A DNA stretch of 23,974 bases from IMG/VR virus record IMGVR_UViG_3300009068_003615, positions 1 to 23,974 of that record. The stretch is one strand, 5' to 3'. The position numbers and the translations under genes are program-made. The DNA comes from a virus. Of this stretch, positions 5,836 to 23,974 are shown one piece after another; position 1 is the stretch's first letter; each line of letters begins with the position of its first letter. Under the pieces are notes generated by a model, which was given only the letters and a program-made list of their open reading frames with translations, did not search any database and had not been told where the DNA came from.

Positions 5836-5842
5836 TTAAGTT

Positions 5843-7141: not shown

Positions 7142-7144
7142 AAT

Positions 7145-7774: not shown

Positions 7775-8829
7775 AAACAGCATTAATACTAGGCGGTGGC
7801 GGATTTATAGGAGGACATCTAGGTAAACGATTGAAATCTGAAGGATATTGGGTTAGGATAGTAGATATAAAAAAACATGAACATTTTACGGAAGATGAAA
7901 TTTGTAACGAATTTTTAGTTTATGATTTGTGTGACCCAAAAAATGTAGAAGTTGTATTTAGATTAGAAAGTGTAGATGGAATTTTATTACCAGCTGGGCA
8001 TCATAAACATCTAAATTCAAAAAGTGAATCTTTTGATGAAGTGTATCAATTAGCTGCTGATATGGGCGGCGCTGGATATATTTTTACAGGAGAGAATGAT
8101 GCTAATGTTATGTACAACTCTGCAATAATTAACTTAAATGTCGTAAAGGAAGCTGTAAAAACTAAAGTTAAAAAAGTATTTTATTCTTCTTCAGCTTGTA
8201 TGTATCCGGAACATAATCAATTAGATCCTGAAAATCCTAATTGTGAAGAGTCTTCAGCTTACCCAGCTAATCCCGATTCAGAATATGGATGGGAAAAGTT
8301 ATTCAGTGAAAGATTATTTTTAGCATTTAACAGAAACTATGGATTAGATATTAGAATTGCACGATTCCATAATATATTCGGGCCTTTTGGAACTTATAAA
8401 GGAGGTAAAGAAAAAGCTCCTGCAGCTATGTGTAGAAAAGTAGCTGAGACTTTAGAAGGTGGCGAGATTGAAGTTTGGGGTGATGGGTTGCAAACTAGAT
8501 CATTCTTATATATTGATGAATGTTTAGATGCTATGTTAGCATTAATGAAATCCGACTTTCAAGGACCAGTTAATATAGGTTCAGAAGAAATGATTACTAT
8601 CAACGAATTAGCTCAAATGGCTATTGACATTTCAGGTAAACAAGTCACAATTAAAAATATTGACGGAGATGAGTTTATTGAAAAATATGGATTCAAATGT
8701 CCTACCGGAGTTCGAGGAAGAAACTCAGACAATACATTATTTTTAGAAAAATTAGGTTGGAAAGTTAATCAGCCATTATATACAGGAATTGAATTAACTT
8801 ATAAATGGATTAATACTCAGGTAATATGA
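7771..8829 (+). CDS. GDP-mannose 3,5-epimerase-like extended SDR
   Basis: A 352-residue NAD-dependent epimerase very like plant GDP-mannose 3,5-epimerase (GME), which converts GDP-mannose to GDP-L-galactose (and GDP-L-gulose). Seen: Rossmann GGGGFIGG (8-15), AADMGGAGYI (95-104), SSACMYPE (140-147, with the catalytic-type C143), YGWEK (172-176, YxxxK), RFHNIFGPFGTYKGG (198-212), EKAPAAMCRK (214-223, with K215 as the second catalytic base), WGDGLQTRSF (236-245) and GVRGRNSDN (313-321). These are the GME hallmarks, including the Cys/Lys pair that does the double epimerisation. A 15-20-residue insertion with GHHKH (76-80) precedes the AADMGG motif. The coupled downstream gene is a GT11 enzyme. 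Confidence 0.9.
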   Translation: MKTALILGGGGFIGGHLGKRLKSEGYWVRIVDIKKHEHFTEDEICNEFLVYDLCDPKNVEVVFRLESVDGILLPAGHHKHLNSKSESFDEVYQLAADMGGAGYIFTGENDANVMYNSAIINLNVVKEAVKTKVKKVFYSSSACMYPEHNQLDPENPNCEESSAYPANPDSEYGWEKLFSERLFLAFNRNYGLDIRIARFHNIFGPFGTYKGGKEKAPAAMCRKVAETLEGGEIEVWGDGLQTRSFLYIDECLDAMLALMKSDFQGPVNIGSEEMITINELAQMAIDISGKQVTIKNIDGDEFIEKYGFKCPTGVRGRNSDNTLFLEKLGWKVNQPLYTGIELTYKWINTQVI

Positions 8830-9623
8830 TTACACATAAAAGTATAGGTTATAGTGGAAGATTAGGTAATCAAATGTTTCAATATGCAGCTTTAAAAGCT
8901 CAAGCCTTAAAATTAAATGTAGATTGCTATTTGCCTAATCATACTGCTATTAAACAAGATGGCTGTTTTGATTATACAAATAATAAATGGATTCAATATA
9001 AATTAGATTTGTATGACTGTTTTAATATTACAGCGCCTTTATTAAATCAAACTGAAACAAATATATACATAGAATTGGATTTTTCATATGAAAGTCTTAT
9101 ATTAGATGTATTAGATAATATGGCTATTGAAGGATATTTTCAATCTTATAAATACTTTGAAAATTATAAAGATGAGATTTTAAAAGAGATTACATTTAAA
9201 GATGAAATATTAAATAAATGTAAATTGAAAATATCTAAATATACAAACCCAGTAGCAATTCATATACGAAGAGGCGATCAAGTAGCCCATCCCGGTATGT
9301 GGAATGTGACTTTGGAATATATTCAAGCAGCGCTAGAACAATTTTCAGATGAAGAATATACGTTTTTAATATTCTCTGATGATATGGAATGGTGTAAACA
9401 AGTATTTCCTGAAGGGGTTGTATTTATGGAAGGTAATAACCAATATGAAGATTTATGTTTAATGTCATTATGTAATCATAATGTAATTTCAAATTCATCT
9501 TACTCTTGGTGGGCGGCATATTTAAACAATAATAAAAATAAAAAAGTAGTAGTGCCAAGCAATTGGTTTATTCCTGCAAAACCATTAACAGATTTATATT
9601 TACCTGAATGGATTTGTCTATAA
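8826..9623 (+). CDS. GT11 family glycosyltransferase (alpha-1,2-fucosyltransferase-like)
   Basis: A 265-residue GT11 enzyme. Hallmarks are GRLGNQMFQYAA (11-22), HIRRGD (146-151, the GDP-L-fucose binding motif), FSDDMEWC (183-190) and SNSSYSWWAA (222-231) near the C-terminus. Known members transfer L-fucose from GDP-L-fucose. No GDP-fucose pathway genes (gmd, fcl) appear in the window, but the gene overlaps by four bases the GME homologue that should make GDP-L-galactose, the 6-hydroxy analogue of GDP-L-fucose. I infer that L-galactose may be the natural donor sugar; host-made GDP-fucose is the simpler alternative. Confidence 0.9.
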   Translation: MITHKSIGYSGRLGNQMFQYAALKAQALKLNVDCYLPNHTAIKQDGCFDYTNNKWIQYKLDLYDCFNITAPLLNQTETNIYIELDFSYESLILDVLDNMAIEGYFQSYKYFENYKDEILKEITFKDEILNKCKLKISKYTNPVAIHIRRGDQVAHPGMWNVTLEYIQAALEQFSDEEYTFLIFSDDMEWCKQVFPEGVVFMEGNNQYEDLCLMSLCNHNVISNSSYSWWAAYLNNNKNKKVVVPSNWFIPAKPLTDLYLPEWICL

Positions 9624-9638
9624 CATAAAAATTAAAAT

Positions 9639-10274
9639 ATGAAACCTAAAGCATTTCTAGTAATATCTAGATACAATGAAAATGTAGACTGGGTTAATGA
9701 ATTAACTGACAATTATATAATTTATAATAAAGGAAATAAATTACCAGATCATTATAATGAAATTCTTGCTCCAAATTTCGGAGCGAATCAATATGATATG
9801 TTTCGATTCATACACGATAATTATGAAAATCTGCCTGATTTAATTGCTTTTATGCAAGGAGATCCATACGATCATTGTTTACCAGAAAGATTTAATAATC
9901 TTATTCATAATGAGTTGTTTACAATGTTATTTGGCGACAGAAATTATCCAGATGGAAATTATTATGAAGCTAATAATAGTTGGTATATTGATGCAGCATT
10001 TAATAGTCATAAACCAAAATGTAAATTTTCAAATTTCGACGAATATGCACATACTATATTTGAAAATTATTCGCATCAAGGAATTTTAATTTTCCCTCCT
10101 GGGTCTCAATTAATTGTAGAGAAAGAAAGATGTTTATACTATTCTAAAAACTTTTGGAAAAAACTAATGAATATTATATGTGATCAAGAAGGAATGAATG
10201 GGGGGCGTGAAGCGCATATTGTAGAAAGATCAATCCAACTTATTTTTGAAAATAAATTTAAAGAAAAATTATGA
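9639..10274 (+). CDS. DUF3431-like protein, possible glycosyltransferase
   Basis: A 211-residue protein. Its start VISRYNENVDWV (8-19), then IIYNKG (27-32), PNFGANQYDMFRFI (45-58) and NLPDLIAFMQGDPYDH (64-79) follow the layout of DUF3431-type proteins: an Arg-Tyr-Asn-Glu start, a YNKG turn, an N-x-G-x-E/N stretch and an LPD...FxQG...H block. That family is suspected to be glycosyltransferase-related because of its genomic company and GT-A-like start, but activity is unproven. The gene sits between GT11 and radical SAM genes with a four-base overlap into the latter. An overlapping frame at 9844-10089 is a shadow. Confidence 0.65.
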   Translation: MKPKAFLVISRYNENVDWVNELTDNYIIYNKGNKLPDHYNEILAPNFGANQYDMFRFIHDNYENLPDLIAFMQGDPYDHCLPERFNNLIHNELFTMLFGDRNYPDGNYYEANNSWYIDAAFNSHKPKCKFSNFDEYAHTIFENYSHQGILIFPPGSQLIVEKERCLYYSKNFWKKLMNIICDQEGMNGGREAHIVERSIQLIFENKFKEKL

Positions 10275-11359
10275 TAGAACAAGACCAATTAGAACCTGTA
10301 CAAGGCAGAACATTTACCAGTAATACTAGTAAGCTATTAAAACACTTAGATAAGATTAAGCTTTTACAAGATGGTAAAAGACCATCTCCTGTAATGTTTC
10401 ATCTTTCCATAGCAAACCCGTGCAATTTAACATGTAGTTTTTGTTGCTTTGCTAACAGAACATTAAAAGAAATGTTAACTTTCGAGCAAATAAAAAAGGC
10501 TATCGATTCATTTGTTGAACTTGGAGCGACTGGAGTAGAAATTACTGGAGGTGGAGAGCCTACACTGCATCCTGATTTTGGTAAAGTAGTAAATTATGCT
10601 TATGAAAAAGGTTTAAAAATTGGAGTAGTGACTAACGGAACTACAATAACTAAGTGGCATAAAGTTGGAGGAGTTTGGGATAAACTTGAATGGATTAGAT
10701 TAGGGATGTATGGGTTTTATGAAGGTTATGAATATGACATAGAATCTTTAAGAACTTACCCTAATCTTACTATAGGAGCGGCTTATATATGGGATGAAAA
10801 TTTTGCTACGTCGACTAACCCCAACATAATAGGAAGTTGGGGAGAGACAGAAGGAGTAGATACTAAAGGAAAACGATTATCTAAACACAGACAAACTCCA
10901 GAACATTTTGAAAGAATGTTAGAATGGGTAGAGAAAGAAAAAGTCCCTACTCGAATAGCATTTAATTCAATTAAATCTGCAGATTTAATCGCTGAAGATA
11001 TTGAGATGATTAGAGAAAGAATAAAGGATAAAAACTTAAAATACGCATTTTTATCTGATTTTAATTATAAAGGAACAAGAAAGAATAGTAATTGTTATAT
11101 GCATAACTTTAAACCATTTGTTTTTACTGATGGAAATGTTTATGTATGCCCGTGTGCTGAAATGGCAGTAGAAAATTCTTGGAAAGTTAATCCTGAATTT
11201 AAAATTTGTGATATCGACGGCATTATGGATTTTTATAATAATGTTCAAGAAGATAATGGAATTAAAAGAATCCATGCATGCACATATTGTAAATATGCAG
11301 CTCAAAACGAATTGATTGACGACGCTTTAACTGAAACAGAGCATAATGATTTTGCTTAA
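10271..11359 (+). CDS. Radical SAM enzyme with SPASM-like C-terminal cysteines
   Basis: A 362-residue radical SAM protein. The 4Fe-4S site is CNLTCSFC (C51, C55, C58, with an extra C59), and the SAM-binding GGGEPTLHP is at 93-101. After the barrel, cysteines C275, C293, C295, C313, C337 and C340 form a SPASM- or twitch-like auxiliary cluster domain. Such enzymes modify peptides, sugars or small molecules. Surrounded by glycosyl- and methyltransferases, it may carry out a radical step on a sugar (deoxygenation, epimerisation or C-methylation) or on an amino acid of the glycosylated protein. No specific substrate can be read from the sequence. Confidence 0.85.
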   Translation: MIEQDQLEPVQGRTFTSNTSKLLKHLDKIKLLQDGKRPSPVMFHLSIANPCNLTCSFCCFANRTLKEMLTFEQIKKAIDSFVELGATGVEITGGGEPTLHPDFGKVVNYAYEKGLKIGVVTNGTTITKWHKVGGVWDKLEWIRLGMYGFYEGYEYDIESLRTYPNLTIGAAYIWDENFATSTNPNIIGSWGETEGVDTKGKRLSKHRQTPEHFERMLEWVEKEKVPTRIAFNSIKSADLIAEDIEMIRERIKDKNLKYAFLSDFNYKGTRKNSNCYMHNFKPFVFTDGNVYVCPCAEMAVENSWKVNPEFKICDIDGIMDFYNNVQEDNGIKRIHACTYCKYAAQNELIDDALTETEHNDFA

Positions 11360-11374
11360 CTAATATATAAAATT

Positions 11375-12046
11375 ATGAAAATTAAAAACACAAAAGAAAA
11401 CGAACACAAAGACACGCCGTTTGAAGGATCATTTTATGATGCTGAATATTTTGAAAATGGTCAAGGATCAGGAAAAGGATGGCTACAGAATTATCGATGG
11501 ATGCCTAGACGAACTTTTAAAGAAGCATTGGCTATAGCTGACTATTTAGAGTTAGACGACACAAGTCATGTTTTAGATGTAGGATGTGCTAAAGGCTTTA
11601 TTGTTAAAGCATTACGTGCTTTAGAAATTAAAGCAGATGGATGTGATATAAGCGAATATGCATTATCATTTTGTCCTGAAGGATGTTGGAACTGCACGGA
11701 TTGGTCTTACGGCTACGACACTGGATATACTCATATTGTTATAAAAGATATGCTTGAGCATTTAACTTTACCACAATTAGATGAATTATTGCAAACATTA
11801 AAAAATGTAGCTAATACTATATTATGCGTTATTCCTATGGGTGATAATGGTATATATAGAATTCCAGAATACCATATGGAAATATCTCATTTAATTGCTG
11901 AAGATGAGCAGTGGTGGATAGATACATTTGAAAAAAATGGATGGCATGTAGCGAAGCGTGATTCTATTGTTCCTGGATTAAAAGATAATTGGTCTAATCA
12001 TGCTAATGGATTAGGAAATCATACATTTGTAATTAAAACTAAATAA
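11375..12046 (+). CDS. SAM-dependent methyltransferase, class I
   Basis: A 223-residue protein with motif I VLDVGCAKG at 66-74, an acidic strand-2 end (DGCDIS, 88-93) and a motif-IV-like KDMLEHL near 125-131, typical of Methyltransf_11/23-type enzymes. The start SFYDAEYFENGQGSGKGW (19-36) resembles the N-terminal region of methyltransferases in polysaccharide clusters. The lead ATATAAAATTATG defines the start. It is 15 bases after the radical SAM gene. Most likely an O- or C-methylation of a sugar; the target is not identifiable. Confidence 0.8.
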   Translation: MKIKNTKENEHKDTPFEGSFYDAEYFENGQGSGKGWLQNYRWMPRRTFKEALAIADYLELDDTSHVLDVGCAKGFIVKALRALEIKADGCDISEYALSFCPEGCWNCTDWSYGYDTGYTHIVIKDMLEHLTLPQLDELLQTLKNVANTILCVIPMGDNGIYRIPEYHMEISHLIAEDEQWWIDTFEKNGWHVAKRDSIVPGLKDNWSNHANGLGNHTFVIKTK

Positions 12047-12076
12047 GTATATTATACTCTTTATAATAAAAATAAT

Positions 12077-12772
12077 ATGGAACCTTTAGTTAGTATTTGT
12101 ATTCCTGTTTATGAAATGAGAGGTAAAGGTGTTGAATATTTAAAACATTCTTTAAACATTTTAATAAATCAAACATATAAAAATTTTGAAGTCATTATAT
12201 CTGACAACAGTCAAAATGATGAAATAGAACAAGTATGTAATGATTTTAAAGATAAATTAAATATTCAACACTATTACAATTGTAGAGAACCTAAAGGAAT
12301 GAGTTCGAATGTCAATAATGCTTTATTAAACGCCAATGGCGAAATTATTAAAATATTATTTCAAGACGATTTCTTAGTAGATAATAATAGTTTAGAACAA
12401 CAATTAATACATTTTGTAGGAAATCATAATCATTGGTTAATAACAGCCTGTTGTCATTCTAAAGATGATTTATGCTTTTATAATGCATTTTATCCAAGGT
12501 ATCACGATGATATTCATTATGGAGAAAACACGATTAGTTCTCCAAGTGTATTGATGATTAGAAATGAAAATATTGAATTATTTGACGAAAGTTTATTTTG
12601 GTTAATGGATGTAGATTATTATAAAAGATTATATGATAAATTTGGGTTTCCAAGTATTTGTAATTATATCACCGTCGTTAATAGAGAACATGATAGAAGA
12701 GTAAGTAATAATGAAGCTACAGAAGAAATTAGACAAAAAGAATTAAATTATATAAACCAAAAATATAAATAA
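12077..12772 (+). CDS. Glycosyltransferase family 2
   Basis: A 231-residue GT-A enzyme. The first strand is VSICIPVYE (5-13), followed by QTYKNFEVIISDNSQND (32-48), the canonical GT2 nucleotide-binding half. KGMSSNVNNAL (73-83) corresponds to the family region that closes over the donor, and the metal site is QDDF at 96-99. A compact C-terminal acceptor half ends near residue 231, so it is a single-domain enzyme. It follows a 30-base gap without a clear promoter and is three bases before the next gene. Confidence 0.88.
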   Translation: MEPLVSICIPVYEMRGKGVEYLKHSLNILINQTYKNFEVIISDNSQNDEIEQVCNDFKDKLNIQHYYNCREPKGMSSNVNNALLNANGEIIKILFQDDFLVDNNSLEQQLIHFVGNHNHWLITACCHSKDDLCFYNAFYPRYHDDIHYGENTISSPSVLMIRNENIELFDESLFWLMDVDYYKRLYDKFGFPSICNYITVVNREHDRRVSNNEATEEIRQKELNYINQKYK

Positions 12773-12775
12773 AAA

Positions 12776-13546
12776 ATGCAACAGACATACCAAGCACATG
12801 GATGGGACTATCCATGTAGCGATATAGCCGATAACTATATCAGAACGATACAATCATTTATAAATGATGATAATGAACTTAATACATTCAGACAAAAATT
12901 AGGATCGACAGGAATTTTAGAAGGAGACACGAGTTGTGGAAATCTTTGGCTTAATATGATATTAACTAAATTCGGAGATTCAATATTGAAAGAAAAATTA
13001 TCTTTATTTAAAAGAAATGATATTTATGGCTCTCCTGTAATTTTAAATTATGGAGAATATGGAGATATGTGTCCATTTACTTTTTTATATGTTTTGCAAG
13101 GATTAAATGCTATTAATAAATTTAAAACTAATAAATTTGATAAAATTGTAGAAATTGGTGCTGGATATGGCGCATTATGCATTATAATGGACTCTTTATG
13201 TGAATATAATGAATATGTAATAATTGATTTGCCAGATGTCGTTGAATTAAATAAAAAATATTTAAAGAATTTTCCGGAAATATATAAAAAAGTTACTTTT
13301 ATTCCTTGTAACAAATTAACTGAAATTTTAGATGTAGATTTATTTTTAAGTATTGCTGCTATATCTGAATGTAATACTGAAACTCAATTAGAATATTTTA
13401 ACAAGGTTATTAAAAATGCAAACTTTGCATATTTAGGATATAATAGACATAATACAGAATTTTTTAATACTGCATCATCTTTATTTAACATTGATAATGA
13501 ATATACTGGAATTAATGAGTATTATTTAACAAAAAATATAATATGA
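12776..13546 (+). CDS. Putative sugar O-methyltransferase
   Basis: A 256-residue protein matching the layout of putative sugar O-methyltransferases found in polysaccharide loci. It has an N-terminal helical part ending in GDTSCGNLWLN (50-60), then GEYGDMCPF (93-101), motif I VEIGAGYG at 125-132 and the strand-2 motif IIDLPDV at 149-155, with a later LFLSIAAISE (about 194-203). The DLPDV motif is typical of this group. It overlaps by four bases the GT17 gene, which suggests that methylation and addition of one residue are linked steps. The antisense frame at 13048-13314 is a shadow. Confidence 0.75.
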   Translation: MQQTYQAHGWDYPCSDIADNYIRTIQSFINDDNELNTFRQKLGSTGILEGDTSCGNLWLNMILTKFGDSILKEKLSLFKRNDIYGSPVILNYGEYGDMCPFTFLYVLQGLNAINKFKTNKFDKIVEIGAGYGALCIIMDSLCEYNEYVIIDLPDVVELNKKYLKNFPEIYKKVTFIPCNKLTEILDVDLFLSIAAISECNTETQLEYFNKVIKNANFAYLGYNRHNTEFFNTASSLFNIDNEYTGINEYYLTKNII

Positions 13547-14445
13547 AAATATACGATGGATTTTTATTTTTTAATGAATTAGATTTATTAGAAATTAGAT
13601 TAAATACATTATCAGAAGTAGTCGATTATTTTATATTAGTCGAATCTTCAGTAACTCATGCGGGAGAGCCAAAACCTTTTATTTTTGAAGAAAATAAAAA
13701 TCGATTTGCTCCATTTTTAAATAAAATAATACATATTAAAGTTACTGACACACCAAATGACTTCAGAGTATCTCCTAAAGAATTTCCAGATACTTTTGAC
13801 GGAAATTTTTTAAAATCAGTATGGAGTTATATTGATACTACTCAAACATTTAATAGGGTTAACCAACAAAATTTTGGTAGAGATTTTTATCAAAAAGAAT
13901 GTATTAAGCGTGGAATGGAGCATGCAAATGATAATGATATTTTAATAGCATCAGATTTGGATGAAATTCCTAACCCAGAGATCATTTCCAGATTAAATGA
14001 GTTTTTTGAAGAAGATGCATTTTATACATTTAATCAAACAATGTATTGTTATTATTTTAATTTACTTCGAAGTTCACATATTAATAATGCTAAGTTTAAT
14101 CATGAAATTACGCATATATGGAAAGGTTCTAGAATGGGTACTTGGGGTATGATTAAAGATTATTCATTAAATGAATTAAGAGCTCAAGATAATAATGATA
14201 TAATGGATGGAGGCTGGCATTTTAGTTATATGGGTGGCCTAGATAGAGTTAAACAAAAAATTCAAGCTTCAAGTGCTCAAGAGTGGAATACAGATGCTGT
14301 TATTAATAATTTAGAAAAAAACCTAATTGAGGAAAGAGATGCTATTTCTAGAGGTGACTATCTTATTAAAGTAGAAATAGACGACACATATCCTCAATAT
14401 TTTTTAGATAATTTAGAAACTTTTAAATACTTGGTTAAAGAATGA
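13543..14445 (+). CDS. GT17 family glycosyltransferase (MGAT3-like fold)
   Basis: A 300-residue member of the GT17 family, whose eukaryotic founder adds a bisecting beta-1,4-GlcNAc to N-glycans. Seen are IYDGFLFFNELDLLEIRL (3-20), FILVESSVTHAGEPKP (30-45), the metal-binding SDLDEIP (137-143), TWGMI (200-204) and GGWHFSYMGG (223-232), all family signatures. Bacterial and viral members lack the animal signal anchor, as here. The donor may not be UDP-GlcNAc in phages. It is coupled by four-base overlaps on both sides (from the O-methyltransferase and into the GT11-like gene). Confidence 0.88.
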   Translation: MKIYDGFLFFNELDLLEIRLNTLSEVVDYFILVESSVTHAGEPKPFIFEENKNRFAPFLNKIIHIKVTDTPNDFRVSPKEFPDTFDGNFLKSVWSYIDTTQTFNRVNQQNFGRDFYQKECIKRGMEHANDNDILIASDLDEIPNPEIISRLNEFFEEDAFYTFNQTMYCYYFNLLRSSHINNAKFNHEITHIWKGSRMGTWGMIKDYSLNELRAQDNNDIMDGGWHFSYMGGLDRVKQKIQASSAQEWNTDAVINNLEKNLIEERDAISRGDYLIKVEIDDTYPQYFLDNLETFKYLVKE

Positions 14446-15398
14446 TATCAACAGAAATATTATATGGGCAAGGATTAGGAAATCAATTAGCATGCTACGT
14501 TACTACTAGAGCTATAGCTGCAGATAAAGGTGTTGATTTTGGTATTCACGACCCTCATGGATGTTTAGGAGATAAAAGATACAATGATAAAGGATTGTAT
14601 TTTTTAGATTTAGATATGGGCAAACCTGTTAATGTAGACAATATTGAATTGTTTTACAATGAAAAGGAATATAGATATTTTACTAATTTATGTCATCATG
14701 ATTCAGTACATGGATGCTGGGTCAATAAAACAGACGAGACTTTAAAAAATATTCCTGACAATTCACATATTTTAGGTATTATGCAAGGTCCAGATTATTT
14801 CTATCATAGAATAGAAGAAGTTAAAGAATGGCTTAAAGTAAAACCTAAATACGATAACTACGATTTTAGTTCAGATGATATTTGCGTTTTAAATGTAAGA
14901 GCTAACATGGACCCTGAAATTTATTTGCCTAGGCCATATTGGATAAATGCAATTAACCATATGTTAGATATCAATACTAATATGACATTTTTAGTAATTA
15001 CAGAAGATGTAGAATCTACTAAAAGACTATTACCTGAATTAGCAGATAATATTTTTGATTTCGGGATTGGAGAAGATTATGCAATAATTAAAAATGCTAA
15101 ATACTTAATAGCATCTAATTCTAGCTTTTCAATATTTCCTTCTTTAACTAGCAATACATTAAAGAAAATTATTGCTCCTAAATATATGCTTCGGCATAAC
15201 ATAAGTGATGGATATTGGTGTCAAGGGTATAATATTTATCCTACTTACACTTACATGGATAGGGAAGGAAAATTATTTAGTGCTGAAGAATGTTTAAAAG
15301 AATTTGAAGACTATTGTGTTAAAACAGATTTTTACAATTCTAAAACAATTCAAAAATATTCTCCATTTCCAGACGTAGCAACTATACAACCTAAATAA
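14442..15398 (+). CDS. Divergent GT11/fucosyltransferase-like protein
   Basis: A 318-residue protein with the opening GQGLGNQLACYVTTRA (9-24) and the closing SNSSFSIFPSL (225-235) of the GT11 fold. The donor motif that reads HIRRGD in the other GT11 of this window is LNVRANMD at 150-157, keeping one arginine but losing His, the second Arg and Gly-Asp order. It therefore probably binds a different nucleotide sugar or is greatly diverged. The C-terminal 70 residues (from about 250) are an extension not needed by the family. It is cysteine-rich for a glycosyltransferase. Confidence 0.7.
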   Translation: MISTEILYGQGLGNQLACYVTTRAIAADKGVDFGIHDPHGCLGDKRYNDKGLYFLDLDMGKPVNVDNIELFYNEKEYRYFTNLCHHDSVHGCWVNKTDETLKNIPDNSHILGIMQGPDYFYHRIEEVKEWLKVKPKYDNYDFSSDDICVLNVRANMDPEIYLPRPYWINAINHMLDINTNMTFLVITEDVESTKRLLPELADNIFDFGIGEDYAIIKNAKYLIASNSSFSIFPSLTSNTLKKIIAPKYMLRHNISDGYWCQGYNIYPTYTYMDREGKLFSAEECLKEFEDYCVKTDFYNSKTIQKYSPFPDVATIQPK

Positions 15399-15400
15399 CA

Positions 15401-16270
15401 ATGACAACACAACTAGTAGTACATTTACTTCCACATGAAATTGATTGGTTCGAGTGGCAATCAAAACAATTTAAAATAGGAAGTTATCATGTAGATAGTA
15501 GCATTATAATTGACGTTACACTTAATCTTAATTTAGTAGATTGGGATAAGTCACAAATGCCTAAACAATTTTACATAGACAAATTCAATTACATTGAAAC
15601 TCTTTGGGATTGGGCAGAAACTAAATTTGATATAAATGAAAATGGAACATGTTTAGGATGCGATGATAAAAGAAGAAACTCGATTAGAACTACCGAAGCC
15701 GATAACATTTTATATCTAGATAGCGACTTAATTTTCAGGCCGGAGACACTGTCGTACATGGTGTCTGCTGCGTCGATCGTAGACAACGAGTATTATATAA
15801 TATCTCCTCAAACTGTGAGAATGTGGGATTCAAGTTGGGATGTAATTACTAATAAAGATTATTTAAACGTGCCAGCAAATATGGAAACATATTATGCAAA
15901 TGATCCTTTTGAAATAATTGCAAAAGATATAACAGATATTGAATTAAAGAAAATTGATGAGTTTAAGTTTGGCGGTGGCTGGTTCAATTTACTATCAACT
16001 AAATTACTTAAATTAACTGACATACCAGACTCCTTTGGCCCTTATGGAATAGATGATTTATATGTTATGATTTGTTGTAATATAATGAAACAAAAAGGAA
16101 TAGAAGTAAATCAATATATAGTAGATGGTTTAGTAGTAATAGAAAATTTTAAATATCGTGAAAACTATCATAAGAATTACTTATATTTAATAGATAATCA
16201 GAACGAGTATAGAGCTCGAGCTGAATCAAATTTAAACATAGAATTAAACAATTTCAATAAATTACTATAA
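15401..16270 (+). CDS. GT-A glycosyltransferase-like protein
   Basis: A 289-residue protein with a GT-A pattern: LVVHLLPHEIDWFEWQ (5-20) as first strand, ILYLDSDLIFRPE (103-115) with DSD at 107-109 as metal site, a FGGGWFNLLS stretch near 190, and GPYGIDDLYVM near 215-225, the DD of which could supply the catalytic base. It fits a broad GT2-like group seen in phages and giant viruses. Codons for residues 111-130 (bases 15731-15790) are strikingly GC-richer than their surroundings. It shares its last base with the start of the FkbM methyltransferase gene. Confidence 0.72.
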   Translation: MTTQLVVHLLPHEIDWFEWQSKQFKIGSYHVDSSIIIDVTLNLNLVDWDKSQMPKQFYIDKFNYIETLWDWAETKFDINENGTCLGCDDKRRNSIRTTEADNILYLDSDLIFRPETLSYMVSAASIVDNEYYIISPQTVRMWDSSWDVITNKDYLNVPANMETYYANDPFEIIAKDITDIELKKIDEFKFGGGWFNLLSTKLLKLTDIPDSFGPYGIDDLYVMICCNIMKQKGIEVNQYIVDGLVVIENFKYRENYHKNYLYLIDNQNEYRARAESNLNIELNNFNKLL

Positions 16271-17031
16271 TGAATATATATTTTAAAGAATCTAATTTTG
16301 GAAATTTTTGTCTATTAGAAGACGATTTAATTAGTAACTGTATTAATGAAAGAGGTTATTGGGAAAATCATTTATTTTACTTTTATAGGCAGTTTATAAA
16401 ATCTGACTATGTGATTATTGACGGAGGGGCTAATTTAGGATTCCATAGTATTCAATTTGCAAAGTTAGCATCTCAAGGAGCTGTATATTGTTTTGAACCT
16501 CAGCCATTAATTTTTAATATACTTTCAACAAATGTATTGATTAATGGATGCTCTGATGTAATTAAACAATATAGATTAGGACTAGGAGATTCAATTGGGC
16601 AGGAATTAAAAATGACTCCGCTTAAAGAACAAATCTTTTCAGAGCATTGTGTTAATTATGGAGGTCGTGGCTTGACTGAAAGTGAGGAAGGTGAAGAAGC
16701 TGTTCAATTAACTACTATAGATAGTTTAGGTTTAGCTAAATTAGATTTCATGAAGTTAGATGTTCAAGGATTTGAATTACATACATTGCTAGGAGGGGAA
16801 GCTACTATTAAAGCAAATTGGCCTTTGATGTTTATAGAAAATTATCCAGACTCAGAACAGGATCAAAAAGTAATTGATTTAATTAAAGAATGGGGTTATG
16901 AAGTTTATAGATTAGAAGCGAGTCATAATGAAGATTGCATTGCCGTTTATCCTAATAAGCATTTAGAAGAAATTAAATTTATAGAAAGTCAACAAGATAT
17001 TAAATGGAAAAAACAAAATTTTAAAAAATAA
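16270..17031 (+). CDS. FkbM-family methyltransferase
   Basis: A 253-residue FkbM-type SAM methyltransferase. Motif I is IDGGANLGFHS at 50-60, strand 2 ends in CFEPQP (74-79), and FMKLDVQGFELHTLLGG (about 155-171) is the family's motif IV/V with the characteristic K-x-D-x-x-G-x-E. LMFIENYP follows. Members methylate hydroxyls on polyketides and on sugars in polysaccharide clusters. The first 40 residues (EDDLISNCINERGYWEN) are also typical of the group. The gene begins on the last base of the preceding stop. Confidence 0.87.
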   Translation: MNIYFKESNFGNFCLLEDDLISNCINERGYWENHLFYFYRQFIKSDYVIIDGGANLGFHSIQFAKLASQGAVYCFEPQPLIFNILSTNVLINGCSDVIKQYRLGLGDSIGQELKMTPLKEQIFSEHCVNYGGRGLTESEEGEEAVQLTTIDSLGLAKLDFMKLDVQGFELHTLLGGEATIKANWPLMFIENYPDSEQDQKVIDLIKEWGYEVYRLEASHNEDCIAVYPNKHLEEIKFIESQQDIKWKKQNFKK

Positions 17032-17035
17032 AAAT

Positions 17036-18796
17036 ATGAGTTTATTAACAAACGATCAGATAAGTAACAGAGGATTTTGGCTTACTGAAGATTCTAGAAA
17101 TCACTGCTTCGATAATAAATTAGCAGATAAACTAAAAGAAGTTTTCACATCATATAGTGTTTTGGATTTGGGTTGTGGCCCTGGGCATTATACTAAATTT
17201 TTTCTAGATAATAATATAGAAAGTGAAGGTTTTGACGGAAATCCTAATACATATACTATATCTGAAGGATTATGTAATGTGGCTGATTTAACTCAAATAC
17301 ATGATTTTAATCAAAAAGATTGGGTATTAAGTTTAGAAGCAGGAGAACATATTCCTAAAGAATATGAACATATATTTATTCAAAATTTAATTAAGCACGC
17401 TAAACAAGGGATAATATTAAGTTGGGCAGTACCTGGACAGCCCGGTGACGGTCATGTAAATTGTCAGTCCAATGAATATGTTATTTCTTTAATGAAAGAA
17501 AATGGGTTTTCATTAGACACTAAAACATCTATAGATCTTAGAGAAGTAGCTGAGTTATGGTGGTTTAAAAATACAGTAATGGTTTTTAGAAAAGATGAAT
17601 TACCTAAAATAACATTTTGCATACCAAGCAAATCAAATTTGCGATATTTAAAAACATGCATACCTTCAATCAGAGAAAATGCATTTAGATCTGATCATGA
17701 TATTATCGTCTTTGTCGACTCAGATGAGGATGGAACTGTAGAATGGTTAGAGCAAGTTAAAGATGAATACAATGTCAAGTATTTTATCAATCCTGATTTA
17801 GGAACGAAATTATTTGGTATTGGAAAGGCATATGATTATTGTATTGAGTCGGCAACGACTGATATTGTAATGATATTTCACGCTGATATGATGTTAGGTA
17901 AACGTGCTGATTTAAATGCATATAAACATCTTAAAAAAGGATCTGTAGTATGTGCTACGAGAATTGAACCTCCTTTACACCCAAATGCTGGAGAAAAAAT
18001 ATTAATGGATTTTGGTATTTGGCCAGAAGAATTTAAAAAGAGTGAATTTAATAATTTTGTAGATAAGTTATTAGTTGATTATAATTATAAGACAACTGAA
18101 GGTATTTTTGCTCCATGGATGATTTATAAATCAGATATATTATCTATTGGAGGGCATGATCCTATTTTAAAGTCGGCTCGTGAAGATTCTGATTTATTTA
18201 ATCGTTTTGTATTAAATGGATATTCAATTATTCAGTCATGGGATTCGTTGGTGTATCATTTAACAGGCAGAGGTGGTCAATTTCAGCATGGTAAAGTAAC
18301 TCAAGACGAAACCGCTAAAAGTGCAGAATGGCAAAAATTAATGATGGACTCGACAAAAGAGTTTATTAGAAAATGGGGAAGTCCAGTAAATCATACTCCC
18401 ATGATGATGCCAATTATTACTCCAAAATATGATATTGCATTTAAAGTTGTTAATTGTTCATATCAAATATTAGAATTGCTTGAGCCGTTTTGTAATAGAA
18501 TATTTGTTGAAAATCAAGATAACCTTATCGAACATTATATCGTTGCTGAACAGCCTAACACTTCATATGATTTAAGTAAGCGAGTACATTCATGGGAATA
18601 TTCTGAACCTCATGATTATCATGATATTATAGTTGATATTAACGGAGCTACATTAACTCAAGAAGATTTTAGCGTAATTCAACAATTGCCTTTGATTATT
18701 CAAGATACAAATGAAACTGGAATATTTGAATTAGGCAATCTTAAAATTAAAATTATTTCCATAACAGAAACACAAAACAATTTAATTAAATTATGA
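17036..18796 (+). CDS. Fused methyltransferase-glycosyltransferase
   Basis: A 586-residue two- or three-domain protein. Residues 1-185 are a class I methyltransferase: VLDLGCGPG at 42-50, EGFDGNP (64-70) and WVLSLEAGEHIP (96-107, motif IV). Residues 191 to about 440 are a GT2-like glycosyltransferase: ITFCIPSKSNLRYLKTC (192-208), VFVDSDEDGT (225-234) and a metal site in FHADMM (281-286), followed by a long acceptor half. The last 130 residues are a third segment without recognised motifs, rich in beta-type sequence. The fusion implies that methylation and sugar transfer act on the same chain end, in the manner of chain-capping enzymes. It overlaps the SDR gene by four bases. Confidence 0.85.
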   Translation: MSLLTNDQISNRGFWLTEDSRNHCFDNKLADKLKEVFTSYSVLDLGCGPGHYTKFFLDNNIESEGFDGNPNTYTISEGLCNVADLTQIHDFNQKDWVLSLEAGEHIPKEYEHIFIQNLIKHAKQGIILSWAVPGQPGDGHVNCQSNEYVISLMKENGFSLDTKTSIDLREVAELWWFKNTVMVFRKDELPKITFCIPSKSNLRYLKTCIPSIRENAFRSDHDIIVFVDSDEDGTVEWLEQVKDEYNVKYFINPDLGTKLFGIGKAYDYCIESATTDIVMIFHADMMLGKRADLNAYKHLKKGSVVCATRIEPPLHPNAGEKILMDFGIWPEEFKKSEFNNFVDKLLVDYNYKTTEGIFAPWMIYKSDILSIGGHDPILKSAREDSDLFNRFVLNGYSIIQSWDSLVYHLTGRGGQFQHGKVTQDETAKSAEWQKLMMDSTKEFIRKWGSPVNHTPMMMPIITPKYDIAFKVVNCSYQILELLEPFCNRIFVENQDNLIEHYIVAEQPNTSYDLSKRVHSWEYSEPHDYHDIIVDINGATLTQEDFSVIQQLPLIIQDTNETGIFELGNLKIKIISITETQNNLIKL

Positions 18797-19641
18797 AAAT
18801 ACTAGTAACAGGAGGATTAGGATTTGTAGGGTCCAATCTAATTAAACGACTAATTAACGAAGGACATGATGTTTCATGTATAGATAACTTATCTACCGGG
18901 TTAGTTGAAAATAGAGTGTCAGGTTGTACATATCATTATTATGATTGCAATGACATCAATAAAAAATTAACAGATAATTATGAAGTGATCTTTCATTTAG
19001 CTGCATTGGCTCGAATTCAAGCTTCATTTATGTATCCAACCAATACGTTTATATCCAATACATCAGGGACTCAAGAAGTTTTAGAATATGCTCGATTACA
19101 CAATTCTAAAGTTATATATGCAGGATCTTCATCAAAGTGGCATGATCCTAAAATATCTCCATACGCAATGAGCAAATATTTAGGAGAAGAGCTTTGTAAG
19201 ATGTATCGTCAATGCTTTGATTTAAAAGTACAACTTACAAGATTTTATAATGTATATGGACCGGGAGAAATTGTTGATGGCGACTATGCAGCTGTAATTG
19301 GAATTTGGAGAAGGCAATGCCGAGATAACCAACCTATTACGGTTGTAGGCGACGGCTTGCAAAGAAGAGATTTTACATATATTAATGATATTGTTGATGG
19401 ATTAATTAAAGTAATGAGCACTGACATTTATCATGAAGATGCTTGGGAATTAGGAACAGGCACCAATCATTCTATATTAGATATTGCTAAAGTCTTTGCA
19501 GAAAAATTTCATAATGAAATTGTACATCTACCCGACCAGCATGGTAATTATCGTGAGACTTTGCGTGAGCATAGCGATGCCTTAACATTATTAAATTGGA
19601 ATCCAAAAGATCAATTAAAAGAATATATTAATAGTTTATAA
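18793..19641 (+). CDS. NAD-dependent epimerase/dehydratase, extended SDR
   Basis: A 282-residue extended SDR acting on a nucleotide sugar. It shows GGLGFVG (7-13), the acidic end of strand 2 in CIDNLSTG (29-36), HLAALA (68-73), the catalytic serine in GSSSK (111-115), YAMSK (124-128, YxxxK), RFYNVYGPGE and GDGLQRRDFTYIND, the family's substrate-binding blocks. It resembles GalE-like UDP-glucose/UDP-glucuronate 4-epimerases and decarboxylases; the exact reaction cannot be settled. It is shorter than most GalE (about 330). The next gene, two bases on, is a UDP-sugar dehydrogenase, so a UDP-uronate substrate is likely. Confidence 0.85.
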   Translation: MKILVTGGLGFVGSNLIKRLINEGHDVSCIDNLSTGLVENRVSGCTYHYYDCNDINKKLTDNYEVIFHLAALARIQASFMYPTNTFISNTSGTQEVLEYARLHNSKVIYAGSSSKWHDPKISPYAMSKYLGEELCKMYRQCFDLKVQLTRFYNVYGPGEIVDGDYAAVIGIWRRQCRDNQPITVVGDGLQRRDFTYINDIVDGLIKVMSTDIYHEDAWELGTGTNHSILDIAKVFAEKFHNEIVHLPDQHGNYRETLREHSDALTLLNWNPKDQLKEYINSL

Positions 19642-19642
19642 T

Positions 19643-20500
19643 ATGAAACAACAAATAGGAATTATTGGACAAGGCTTTGTAGGATCGGCAGTCCGAGAAG
19701 GAATGAAAAATCATTTTGACATTTTGGCATTCGATAAAGATCCTAATAAGTATAGCAACGTTGAATCGATATTTCATGTAGTTGAAAGTACAGATTTGAC
19801 TTTTTTATGTGTACCAACGCCAATGCGTAAAAATGGTTCATGTGACTTGTCAATTGTAAGAAATGCTTTAAATGAAATCAATGACGTTGCCAAAGCACTT
19901 TTTGCGGAAGATTATATCGTAGTAATCAAATCGACTATTCCTCCAGGAACGACAGAGCAATTAAATCGAGAATATCCTAATTTAGATATTGTATTTAATC
20001 CAGAGTTTTTAACTGAAGCAAATGCAGTTGATGATTATAAAAATCAAAATAGAATTATTGTAGGAGGCGAAAGACCAGGCTCGACAAAAGTTAAAGCTGT
20101 ATTTGCAAAAGCATTTCCTAAAGTGCCAATCATCAAAACATCTTCATCAATTGCTGAAATGATTAAGTATGTAACTAATACATTTTTAGCAACTAAAGTT
20201 TCATTTGCAAATGAAATGTATCAAATTTGTCAAGCACTGAATATTGACTATGATAAAGTGATTGAATATGCACGTTATGATGATCGATTAGGAAATTCAC
20301 ATTGGAGTGTTCCTGGTCCAGATGGCGACTTTGGTTTTTCAGGAAGTTGTTTCCCAAAGGACATCCAATCATTAATACATCAAGCTAAGTTATTAGGACT
20401 TGACCCTTCTGTATTAGAAGCTGCTTGGAATAAAAATCTTAAAGTAAGGCCAGGCAAGGATTGGGAGACTCTTAAAGGACGCGCGGTAAGTGCAGAATAA
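19643..20500 (+). CDS. UDP-glucose/GDP-mannose dehydrogenase, short form
   Basis: NAD-dependent four-electron oxidation of a nucleotide sugar to its uronate. The N-terminal Rossmann domain has GQGFVGSA (9-16), FLCVPTP (54-60), KSTIPPGTT (96-104) and FNPEFL (118-123). The central dimerisation helix has EMIKYVTNTFLATK (172-185, with active-site K175). The catalytic cysteine is C236 in GFSGSCFPKD. All catalytic residues are therefore present. At 285 residues it lacks most of the C-terminal UDP-binding domain found in the usual 390-450-residue enzymes, and no continuing frame follows in the 24-base gap. The short form may be complete, or may use a partner for the missing domain. Confidence 0.87.
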   Translation: MKQQIGIIGQGFVGSAVREGMKNHFDILAFDKDPNKYSNVESIFHVVESTDLTFLCVPTPMRKNGSCDLSIVRNALNEINDVAKALFAEDYIVVIKSTIPPGTTEQLNREYPNLDIVFNPEFLTEANAVDDYKNQNRIIVGGERPGSTKVKAVFAKAFPKVPIIKTSSSIAEMIKYVTNTFLATKVSFANEMYQICQALNIDYDKVIEYARYDDRLGNSHWSVPGPDGDFGFSGSCFPKDIQSLIHQAKLLGLDPSVLEAAWNKNLKVRPGKDWETLKGRAVSAE

Positions 20501-20524
20501 ATTATTAATTTTAAATTTTAAATT

Positions 20525-20854
20525 ATGAAAGTCAATAACGAAAAAATAAACGGTACAATCATCAGAGATACTGATGTATATATAGTTGAAGACAATACTT
20601 TTTTAAATAACTTAGTTTTATCAAAAACCACTTTACATCGTAATCAATGTACATCAGGCCATTCTCATGCTGGGCTTGAAGAAGTGTATTTCTTTCAAAG
20701 AGGTAACGGTACAATGCAACTTGATGAAGAAACTTTTGATGTCGCTGCAGGTGATATAGTTCTTATACCCGACGGTGCATTTCATAAAGTCTTTAACAAA
20801 AATGGAAAGCAAGATTTAGTATTTGTTTGTGTGTTTCAAAAATACGAACGATAA
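20525..20854 (+). CDS. Cupin-domain protein
   Basis: A 109-residue single cupin barrel. Motif 1 is TSGHSHAGLEEVYFFQRGNG (43-62) with H46, H48 and E52 as metal ligands. Motif 2 is GDIVLIPDGAFHKVFN (76-91) with H87 as the fourth ligand. The set is complete, so it is likely a functional metal-binding cupin. Next to sugar-nucleotide genes it could be a sugar isomerase or epimerase, but single cupins have many roles. The start follows an A/T lead (TTTTAAATTATG). It appears to end the island: a 52-base gap with a candidate promoter follows. Confidence 0.85.
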   Translation: MKVNNEKINGTIIRDTDVYIVEDNTFLNNLVLSKTTLHRNQCTSGHSHAGLEEVYFFQRGNGTMQLDEETFDVAAGDIVLIPDGAFHKVFNKNGKQDLVFVCVFQKYER

Positions 20855-21146: not shown

Positions 21147-21436
21147 TGAAAAGATCAATAATTATGGGTAGTTTAATTGTAATTGCTATAGCAGCTGTAA
21201 CTGCATATACTTTTGAAGTATCGACTAATCTTAAATTAAAAGCAGAGTTAGCTGTTAAAGATTCGATAATTGCAATACAAAGAGCAGAATATCTAAATTT
21301 AAAAGATGTTGTTATTGAACGAGATTATGAACTTTCATTTTGGGGAAACGTTCTAGATCAATTAGCTACTAACCATCCAGACGATGCAAATAAAATAGCC
21401 AAAGACTTTGGATTTGAATGGAATGAAGTTAAATAA
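21146..21436 (+). CDS. Single-pass membrane-anchored small protein
   Basis: Ninety-six residues starting MKRSIIMGSLIVIAIAAVTAY: a short basic start, then one membrane helix (about residues 5-21), followed by a helical, charged segment likely to form a coiled coil (LKLKAELAVKDSIIAIQRAE, about 28-47) and a soluble end. The topology is cytoplasmic N-terminus with the rest outside, unless the helix is a cleaved signal; no lipobox is seen. A GTG at 21143 would add one residue, but the ATG at 21146 overlaps the previous stop and is preferred. Function unknown. Confidence 0.7.
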   Translation: MKRSIIMGSLIVIAIAAVTAYTFEVSTNLKLKAELAVKDSIIAIQRAEYLNLKDVVIERDYELSFWGNVLDQLATNHPDDANKIAKDFGFEWNEVK

Positions 21437-21458
21437 ACCAACATTAAAAAGTAATTAT

Positions 21459-21896
21459 ATGGAACAAGAACAATCAATGGTAAGTTACCAATCAACAATC
21501 AATCCAGAGTTTACTGTAATTGTAATTTACAAAGAGCATGATCGATATAAAGAGATTAAAGACTCTTTGGAAAAGATGAATAATTCTATTGGGGTGTTAT
21601 TAGTTGGCACTAAAAACATTTTTATTGATGGAGAAGCTATTGCTGAACAAGAAATTGACAAGGATCAATTACTAGCGATTGAAGCTCATGAAATTGCTCA
21701 TTCAATGTTAAATCATGAAGCTGGAATAGATGACAACTCTGAAAAAGAAGCTGACTTACTTGGCATTGCTTTATTAGAAATGTCAGATTTGCAAAGAGCA
21801 GCTTCATTCTTAAAAGATCGATTGAAAGAATTACATGGTATTGATTATGCTGCGTTTGAAGAAGAGTTTGATGAATTGAATTATGAATCTAACTAA
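21459..21896 (+). CDS. Zinc metalloprotease-like protein (HEXXH ... ExEAD)
   Basis: A 145-residue protein. HEIAH is at residues 77-81, and EKEAD at 95-99 would supply the third, glutamate, zinc ligand with the aspartate that holds the first histidine, as in M48-type and related gluzincins (E-x-E-A-D pattern). No membrane segment is seen, unlike integral M48 proteases. The start at 21459 clears the previous gene and has an A/T lead (GTAATTATATG); in-frame ATG 21423 and TTG 21408 lie within the preceding gene. It could process a phage or host protein, or be a toxin/repressor protease; the substrate is unknown. Confidence 0.75.
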   Translation: MEQEQSMVSYQSTINPEFTVIVIYKEHDRYKEIKDSLEKMNNSIGVLLVGTKNIFIDGEAIAEQEIDKDQLLAIEAHEIAHSMLNHEAGIDDNSEKEADLLGIALLEMSDLQRAASFLKDRLKELHGIDYAAFEEEFDELNYESN

Positions 21897-21946: not shown

Positions 21947-22345
21947 ATGATTAAACTGAAATCTATAATTAATGAAGAAGCTTCTTCCGAAGCGGCCAAT
22001 TCTGCGGCTGTTTACTTTAAAGCTTTTAGTAAAGAGTTTAATTATGAAACTACATGGACTCATTTAGGCTTGAAAAATGGAGAAAATGTTTTCACAGCTC
22101 CTTTGAAAAATTTAGGAGATTTGCGAATGATATTTTCTGAAGCAACTATTATGGCTCGTGTAAGTAAAGACAAAGCATATTTTGGAATTATTTACATGTT
22201 AAATGGATTAGAACAATTTGACGCAACGGTATGTTTGATTAAAAAAATAGATTCTAATTTTGAAATAAAAATGTTTGATGATAATGATTCAGACTTTTCA
22301 GACGCTAAGACTAATTTTATTAAACTAATAAAAATAATGGTATAA
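21947..22345 (+). CDS. Hypothetical protein with MIKLKSIINEE start
   Basis: A 132-residue soluble protein with alternating strand and helix segments. The start MIKLKSIINEE looks like the short basic-acidic leader (MKLKxxIxEE) that recurs at the start of many proteins in T4-like marine phages, possibly a targeting or cleavage tag for incorporation into the head. The remainder shows no motif that I recognise. The gene follows the repeated 13-mer element and shares its last base with the next start (TAATG). Confidence 0.6.
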   Translation: MIKLKSIINEEASSEAANSAAVYFKAFSKEFNYETTWTHLGLKNGENVFTAPLKNLGDLRMIFSEATIMARVSKDKAYFGIIYMLNGLEQFDATVCLIKKIDSNFEIKMFDDNDSDFSDAKTNFIKLIKIMV

Positions 22346-23016
22346 TGAAATTCAATTACAGTTGCCAATCAATTCCTATTATATCAAAAGATTCTGTTCA
22401 TAATCCATTACCAGAGTCAATTGCAGAGTCTATATTACTTAACGGAGCTTGTCATGTAGACCATGAAGGTTTCGATTTAAATGAAATAGAGCAAGCATAT
22501 TATACTCATAACAAAGTAAATTTAAGTTATGATAAAACTTGGTACAAAGACGGAGATCAAATGTCTGGAACTAATGCAGTAGTGTATCCTTGGTTTATTC
22601 AAAAAGATCATTCAGAATTAGTTTTAGACCATAGTCATTTTGTAGTCAAATATCCTATTGTTGGAGAAGCTAAAATTCAAATTGAAAAATATGCAACTCA
22701 AAGACCTGAACTTCTTCGAATTTTAAGTGCTAGGTTTAAAGCTGGGGTAGATTTATGTATAGATTATTTTAGTAGTGAACGAGTAGAGCCTATAGTTCAT
22801 ATAGAATGGGACTTTGATTGTGTATCTGAAATGTATGAGTTTACAATGTATGTAGAAGACATAATTCAAAACAGTAATTGGATGGATGCAATACCTACTA
22901 TAGTTCAATTTAATAAATTAGCACGACAAAAAAAGTTAGATGCGTTTCAGCAATCTGACACAAGAGCTATGATAATTTTTGGAGAAAAATCTTATAAATT
23001 AATACCTACATTGTAA
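22345..23016 (+). CDS. Hypothetical protein, 223 residues
   Basis: A soluble alpha/beta protein. Its only notable features are a Trp/Tyr-rich middle (YDKTWYKDG, VVYPWFIQKDH) and a clustered acidic stretch EWDFDCVSEMYEF (about 154-166). No family recognised and no signal peptide or membrane segment. It overlaps the preceding and following genes by one base each, suggesting that the three genes from 21947 to the right edge are expressed together. Codon use is typical of the window. Confidence 0.6.
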   Translation: MKFNYSCQSIPIISKDSVHNPLPESIAESILLNGACHVDHEGFDLNEIEQAYYTHNKVNLSYDKTWYKDGDQMSGTNAVVYPWFIQKDHSELVLDHSHFVVKYPIVGEAKIQIEKYATQRPELLRILSARFKAGVDLCIDYFSSERVEPIVHIEWDFDCVSEMYEFTMYVEDIIQNSNWMDAIPTIVQFNKLARQKKLDAFQQSDTRAMIIFGEKSYKLIPTL

Positions 23017-23974
23017 TGAACGAAGATTTAAGAGACTGGTTTGGCAAAGGCAAAAAAGGTGGCGTAGGCGGAGGGGGCTGGGACAGATATAATTCGTCAG
23101 GCGATCGAGTTGGTAAATGTGGAGATGCTAAAGAAGGCGATGCATACTCAGCATGCTTATCAAAAGAAAAAGCTAGAAAATTAGGAAAATCTGGACGAGC
23201 ATCTTTTGTTAGAAGAAAGCGAACGGCTCAAGCAAAAGGAGGCGATGCTAAAAAAGGAGGAGAACGTACTAAAGGACAAGCTCCAATCAAAGTAAAAACT
23301 TCAATTAAAAAAGAAAATTTGGATCCTAAAACATTTAAAGACACTGGAAAGTCTGCACCATATGGATCTGGATATTCAAAAATAAAAGAGCTTGAAGAAA
23401 GATTGAATTTATTTTTAGAAAAAAATGTACCGGTAGATGCTAGTAAATGGTCATATTACAAGTCTCGGGCTGAAGATAAATTTGATGTATATCCTTCTGC
23501 TTACGCTTTAGGGTGGGCTGCAAAAATGTATAAAAAAGCTGGCGGTAAATGGAAAACTTCTGAATCATTAAAATTAGAATCTAATTTACTTAAAGTATCA
23601 AAGCCTTATGAGTTTCAAAAAGGCGATTTGGTAAAAAATATCAACCCTACATGTACTCATTATAAATCTACCGGTGAAGTAGTTTACGTGCATGACAATG
23701 GAGACATTACATATAGAGTCAATAATCAAGGAGCTACATATACTCCAGGTGACCAATTAACTAAGTCACAGGATCAATTAATTAAGACAATGACTCGTAC
23801 TCCAATACCGGCCTATAGTTTAACTACAGAGTCTAAATTAAATGAATGTGTAGTTGCTCGTATTAAAGTAGACGGTAAAACTATTTTAGCCAAAAATAGA
23901 GATAGAGGATATAAAGCTCAAATTGAAGTCGTGCATGAATTAATTGAAGGAGTTGAAGTTGTTTATCTTCATGA
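23016..23974 (+). CDS. Large phage protein, DUF5872-like N-terminus with possible Ntn-hydrolase, partial
   Basis: An open frame of 319 codons running off the right edge. Residues 1-95 are Gly/Lys/Arg-rich: KGGVGGGGWDRY (14-25), CGDAKEGDAYSAC (35-47), and a basic stretch SFVRRKRTAQAKGGDAKKGG (62-81). This looks like the DUF5872-type region of phages and giant viruses. Residues about 142-180 (WSYYKSRAEDKFDVYPSAYA, then LGWAAKMYKKAGGKW) are a second block of this type. After a beta-rich middle (about 193-250), NECVVARI (276-283) with C278 and ILAKNRDRGY (290-299) resemble the start of C45-type Ntn-hydrolases, where a nucleophile Cys is exposed by self-cleavage and followed 16-18 residues later by N-x-D. 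The hydrolase part is inference and truncated. Confidence 0.65.
   Translation, partial: MNEDLRDWFGKGKKGGVGGGGWDRYNSSGDRVGKCGDAKEGDAYSACLSKEKARKLGKSGRASFVRRKRTAQAKGGDAKKGGERTKGQAPIKVKTSIKKENLDPKTFKDTGKSAPYGSGYSKIKELEERLNLFLEKNVPVDASKWSYYKSRAEDKFDVYPSAYALGWAAKMYKKAGGKWKTSESLKLESNLLKVSKPYEFQKGDLVKNINPTCTHYKSTGEVVYVHDNGDITYRVNNQGATYTPGDQLTKSQDQLIKTMTRTPIPAYSLTTESKLNECVVARIKVDGKTILAKNRDRGYKAQIEVVHELIEGVEVVYLH

Follow-up and report, generated by a model that had tools for sequence, protein, structure and literature searches.

The truncated open reading frame at the right end of the window (the whole stretch of DNA analysed, 23,974 nucleotides, positions 1 to 23,974 of IMG/VR record IMGVR_UViG_3300009068_003615) probably encodes a precursor for T4-like head proteins, including a capsid-packaged zymogen whose catalytic N-terminal cysteine would be exposed by the prohead protease. 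In the window, the precursor breaks off in the start of its last domain, a C45-like Ntn hydrolase, and the match of its Glu-Cys junction to the capsid protease signal suggests that the enzyme is packed in the head and switched on there. Enzyme fold and T4 capsid-targeting system are each already known, and what would be new is their combination. The relevant features, all on the plus strand, are the following.

21947..22345, +, upstream gene with the same kind of leader (MIKLKSIINEE), 61% identical to ORF 9196 of phage record G009
23016..23972, +, truncated ORF for the multi-module precursor, 319 amino acids, no stop, open to the right window end
23016..23024, +, residues 1-3 (MNE), leader remnant; the bond before DLR(D/A)WF follows Glu in homologues
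23025..23309, +, module 1 (residues 4-98), a basic domain rich in Gly and Lys, DLRDWFGKGKKGG...WDRYNSSGDRVGKCG
23412..23420, +, F133-L134-E135, putative cleavage site for the prohead protease ahead of KNVP; P1 Glu in 15/15 homologues
23421..23561, +, module 2, residues 136-182, KNVPxDxxKWSYYKSxAxxKFDVYPSAYA, DUF5872-like
23574..23801, +, module 3 (residues 187-262), a small beta-barrel with an SH3/KOW-like fold in a predicted model
23838..23846, +, L275-N276-E277, L/I-x-E site abutting the catalytic Cys; P1 Glu in 106/107 distinct homologues
23847..23972, +, first part (residues 278-319) of the C45-like Ntn-hydrolase domain; the complete domain has ~275 residues
23847..23849, +, codon of C278, the predicted N-terminal nucleophile, invariant in 106/106 homologues
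23895..23903, +, N294-R295-D296, invariant active-site motif; Cys-to-Asp spacing 18 residues

Of the hydrolase domain, the window covers just the initial 42 residues, and relatives supplied the remainder. No rightward extension was found in viral contigs by exact 30-base match, and a full-length relative was used instead (L075:3023-4849, 609 amino acids, same leader, 78% identity over the shared part). The surroundings are T4-like, with clamp loader subunits (phrog_168, 8e-86; phrog_225, 9e-19), a dNMP kinase and a PD-(D/E)XK nuclease, after which come sugar genes and genes for glycosyltransferases. A block of ~16 kb (4453-20854) is taken up by genes for glycosyltransferases, sugar-nucleotide functions and methyltransferases, together with one radical SAM gene (10271-11359). 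An ORF at 21408-21896, just upstream of the leader-bearing gene, contains an HExxH motif (IEAHEIAHSML), is weakly similar to Peptidase_M48 (E 0.058) and is possibly a zinc protease.

We collected homologues by sequence search. The last 50 residues of the window ORF, used as a query, gave 42 viral loci. An alignment search with the hydrolase domain gave 152 relatives (80 of them kept), and a search with the protein of MA9V-1, from a distant clade, gave 158 (again 80 kept). The proposed arrangement had been called unusual for a phage; the hydrolase family itself is not rare there, with more than 150 viral loci found, most of them with short leaders. Searches of bacterial and archaeal species genomes gave a single relative, in an Actinomycetota MAG (L203, 4941-6197), with Glu-Ala-Cys before the nucleophile and not Glu-Cys; with this protein as the query, no further viral relatives were found.

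All six full-length homologues tested matched NCBIfam C45_proenzyme (NF040521, E 4.6e-6 to 1.5e-10), with scores of 26-41 bits that lie under the curated cut-off of 85. Pfam AAT (PF03417) was matched by L075 with 23.8 bits versus a cut-off of 23.2 (E 4.1e-5), and by the other tested homologues with 18-22.5 bits or not at all. The AlphaFold2 model of the mature L075 domain (pLDDT 93.3, pTM 0.91) was compared with the PDB by Foldseek, which returned CV2077 (3gvz, 7.7e-10), isopenicillin-N acyltransferase (2x1c/d/e, ~1e-9), and bile-salt hydrolases and penicillin V acylase (1e-7 to 1e-5). A direct PDB sequence search, run with a single homologue and with a profile of 40 sequences, returned no Ntn entry, and the Ntn match came only from profile libraries and fold comparison. 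In 106 full-length distinct homologues, with pairwise identities down to 30%, C1, N17-R18-D19-R20, R160 and N162-H163-G164 are invariant, and these include the C45-type residues C1, D19 and N162 (RTNHG). By analogy with the family, we infer that C1 acts as the nucleophile and N162 in the oxyanion hole.

Because of the profile matches, the confident fold model and the invariant residues, we place the domain, on sequence and model grounds, among the Ntn cysteine hydrolases, near C45. The original prediction of a C45/AAT-type Ntn hydrolase starting at C278 behind a basic leader is supported, including the downstream Ntn fold, set beforehand as a test and present in relatives, and the conservation of C278. 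Its positions for C278, N294 and D296 were exact in the residue numbering of the translated ORF (L275-N276-E277-C278; N294-R295-D296 within ILAKNRDR). The spacing from which it argued was dropped as evidence: C-x14-16-N-x-D is also met by chance among the open frames of the window (three occurrences, one of them a false position in the window ORF itself), and we hold the motif to be real because it is conserved in homologues, spacing alone being no better than chance. This recurrence could be taken to mean that the C...NRD pattern is coincidental and the downstream part no hydrolase, a reading with next to no probability, as it is ruled out by the L075 fold model, the Foldseek and C45/AAT profile matches and the conservation in 106 homologues. 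C45 and C59 enzymes, the fold relatives, act on linear amides, and the predicted substrate class is most likely a small linear amide of the N-acyl amide type, as in other enzymes of these families.

The junction directly before the catalytic cysteine is nearly constant. P1 is Glu in 106 of 107 distinct homologues, P2 is free, and P3 is Leu or Ile in 102/107; after clustering at 70% identity, the counts are 30/31 for P1 and 29/31 for P3. The rest of the leader varies in sequence and in length (4 to >330 residues). Cleavage by the T4 prohead protease gp21 follows L/I-X-E, with processing governed by leader positions P3 and P1, which are residues 8 and 10 of the T4 capsid-targeting sequence (PMC9026906). 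The same T4-type cargo feature, a leader ending in L/I-x-E, is thus found in those 102 homologues and, as L275-N-E277, in the window.

This pattern also bears on the possibility that the hydrolase, as a virion or early enzyme, loses its leader to a host protease or uses it for targeting only, so that a cut exactly at the Cys would not be needed. Leaders shorter than eight residues in some homologues would fit, but an invariant Cys after a near-invariant Glu in an Ntn fold makes this explanation very improbable, as the Ntn mechanism requires a free N-terminal Cys throughout the superfamily.

The main rival is self-cleavage before Cys278 as in C45 or PurF-type enzymes, with L/I-x-E suited to the active site of the enzyme itself and the long leader being an ordinary fused domain. 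It has this place because Ntn enzymes can cut after Glu and because leaders of four residues exist. Related C45 enzymes as a rule cleave themselves, propeptide-bearing Ntn hydrolases are generally described as self-activating, and isopenicillin-N acyltransferase is present among the PDB matches in both precursor and mature forms. Leaders of 4-7 residues, such as MINE|C, fit self-cleavage and count against a capsid protease, since they are too short for a T4-like targeting signal of 10 residues. In 22 cellular C45 proteins, P3 is Leu or Ile in 11, as would fit self-cleavage, whereas P1 is mostly Ala or Gly (A8, G5, E3, H2 and others). P1 Glu alone is not diagnostic and was dropped as a proof of external cleavage, because the Ntn enzyme PurF autoprocesses after Glu and three of these 22 cellular proteins have Glu as well.

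What weighs against self-cleavage is that the same Glu rule holds before modules without Ntn chemistry. At the border before DLR(D/A)WFGKG, Glu is found in 29/29 homologues (P3 L/I/M/V in 23/29), and at the KNVPxDxxKW border in all 15; P3 is mostly hydrophobic at both. The self-cleavage proposed originally is therefore not upheld as stated, since L/I-x-E is the T4-type prohead protease rule and Glu-type sites recur at borders without an Ntn enzyme, which makes the phage capsid protease the better-supported route. Leaders of this kind also occur on unrelated genes within one phage and contain additional sites further upstream, and a gp21-type protease is encoded wherever a capsid gene is seen, with one contig-edge exception (see below). 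Taken together, we consider self-cleavage unlikely, though far from negligible. The site before module 3 (LKLE|S) has Glu in 8/8 homologues, yet P3 is not Leu or Ile, and it is not claimed.

The leader of the window ORF had been described as DNA- or virion-binding. It is basic, with Gly/Lys-rich blocks at residues ~1-100, but consists of several modules and not of one DNA-binding domain. The DUF5872-like label fits only as a relationship: residues 139-180 match Pfam DUF5872 (PF19197) weakly (E 0.028, 15.5 bits), below the gathering score of 27.5. The model of module 3 is also weak (pLDDT 69; best PDB match NusG, 1e-3). Two of the leader modules are separate genes in a related phage (G009, where module 1 has the leader MIKLKELLVE), whereas L075 and the window's phage have the modules joined in a single gene. 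In G009, a row of separate module genes, the homologue of window ORF 21947 (ORF 9196, part of the hydrolase cluster of that phage), a HAD-like gene and the hydrolase lies downstream of the genes for S77 protease and Gp23 capsid protein. Two of the modules are also joined in one protein of cyanophage S-BM3, whose gene adjoins the small terminase gene.

Among 24 hydrolase-bearing records with a Gp23 capsid gene, 23 also encode a Peptidase_S77 (gp21-type); the lone exception, G007, has Gp23 at the contig edge. No S77 gene was found in the window fragment or in the records of its eight nearest relatives (G001-G008, all fragments), and of the six of these searched for Gp23, only G007 has one. In L300, S77 is followed by leader genes, the hydrolase (MAKLLNE|C), a scaffold-like gene (KLLKE|AIADA) and Gp23 (QLLDE|ATQTG). 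In G009, S77 and Gp23 precede the leader-gene cluster with the hydrolase.

Leaders similar to that of the hydrolase were found on unrelated genes of the same phage, with 9 versus 1.6 expected in G028 and 4 versus 0.02 in G009 (baseline from internal segments). A second upstream site was present in 32 of 48 hydrolase leaders, versus 22.2 in shuffles (0/2000). In G028, 39/60 ORFs around the hydrolase have [LIV]xE within the first 22 residues (22.2 expected, with cluster borders picked after inspection), and there was no such N-terminal excess in the remainder of the fetched G028 sequence. In MA9V-1, the general [LIVF]xE was not enriched at N-termini (73 versus 80.8), but the narrower [LIVF]NE[ASCG] was (9 versus 2.45); the hydrolase leader of this phage is not clearly shared with other genes (2 versus 0.84). 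A general N-terminal enrichment of [LIVF]xE is not seen in a number of records, MA9V-1 and the window among them; significance is confined to narrower motifs, to the G028 cluster and to G009, the head-gene record, and these were in part chosen after looking.

Some of these gene clusters are extensive. In G028 (L213-L215, G028:C1 ~196-240 kb), ~40 small genes carry leaders such as MNLQENIQRIKEMMG, MKNIIRDILKEE and MKIIITEKQ and probably make up a large reserve of genes for capsid cargo. Many unrelated short genes of G007 (L223-L226) and G009 (L228-L229) share the leader M-K-L/V-S-E-F-K/R-x-L-I-R/K-E-E-V/I, likely a capsid-targeting sequence of those phages. In MA9V-1, the annotated prohead core serine protease MA9V1_151 (L115, record positions 126501-130544; 1,347 amino acids) contains 17 [LIVF][NTI]E[SAGC] sites, which would suit a protease embedded in a polyprotein that it cuts itself.

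From the sequences, we infer cleavage, packaging, injection and all of the enzymology as follows. The hydrolase would be inactive while Cys278 is internal, and the precursor would enter the prohead in this state. During prohead maturation, the gp21-type protease (Peptidase S77) would cut after L-x-E277, making Cys278 the free N-terminal nucleophile, and would also cut similar sites between the other modules. The mature amidase or acyltransferase would stay in the capsid beside basic, possibly DNA-binding modules, and would probably enter the host together with the DNA. We also lean, with somewhat less confidence than for the window gene, towards the broader view that a capsid protease activates an Ntn enzyme that is active only in the finished head and delivered to the next host, as one item of a leader-tagged, mix-and-match cargo that can be fused into head 'polyproteins'.

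In the openly accessible literature, we found neither a phage Ntn head enzyme nor a catalytic residue made by a capsid protease, though an earlier description is possible. If our reading is correct, exposure of the nucleophile by the phage's own prohead protease would tie enzyme activation to head assembly, and the short list of T4-type head cargos known so far (IPs, Alt) would gain a large set that is mostly unannotated. L/I-x-E ahead of an otherwise unrelated protein would then be a simple sequence rule for proposing capsid cargo, and it can be tested, as the carrier MA9V-1, a Chryseobacterium phage whose hydrolase product is MA9V1_182 with FLNE before the Cys, is in culture.

With respect to known enzymes, the domain resembles C45/AAT (acyl-CoA:isopenicillin-N acyltransferase, NF040521, PF03417) in its Ntn fold, its N-terminal Cys with Asp 18 residues on, and its best PDB matches. 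It differs in its best NCBIfam score (41 versus 85 bits), in its ~14% identity to the solved enzyme, and in having L/I-x-E and not mostly Ala/Gly before the Cys, and it is apparently phage-specific. The Ntn cysteine fold is also that of the C59 bile-salt hydrolases and penicillin V acylases, but the structural match is weaker than for C45 and there is no Pfam or NCBIfam match at the sequence level.

Among phage systems, the modules recall the DUF5872/DUF6321 proteins of T4-like cyanophages (T4-GC_119, S-BM3), which carry the DLRDWF and KNVP modules on a single chain, each preceded by Glu, but which, unlike the window ORF, have no hydrolase domain. These modular proteins are encoded in S-BM3 (L340, 3818-4831, T4-GC_119) and Sf-CH8 (L341, 4001-5209), the T4-GC_119-type gene adjoining the small terminase gene and, in Sf-CH8, lying between the small and large subunit genes; they may be cut during head maturation. 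Head and ejection proteins of PhiKZ and SPN3US are likewise cut after Glu by gp21-related proteases (gp175/gp245) and have multi-site propeptides; their motif, however, is S/A-x-E or A-x-E, and in the descriptions consulted none appears as an Ntn enzyme.

Another parallel is with IPI/IPII/IPIII and Alt of T4, which have a short N-terminal leader ending in L/I-x-E that gp21 cuts. As with these proteins, the hydrolases occur in phages with S77 protease and Gp23 capsid, in some of them near head genes, and as with Alt, an ADP-ribosyltransferase, the cargo is an enzyme. In contrast to the T4 proteins, some of the hydrolases, including that of the window, are fused to several modules, and cleavage after Glu would at the same time generate the catalytic residue of the enzyme carried.
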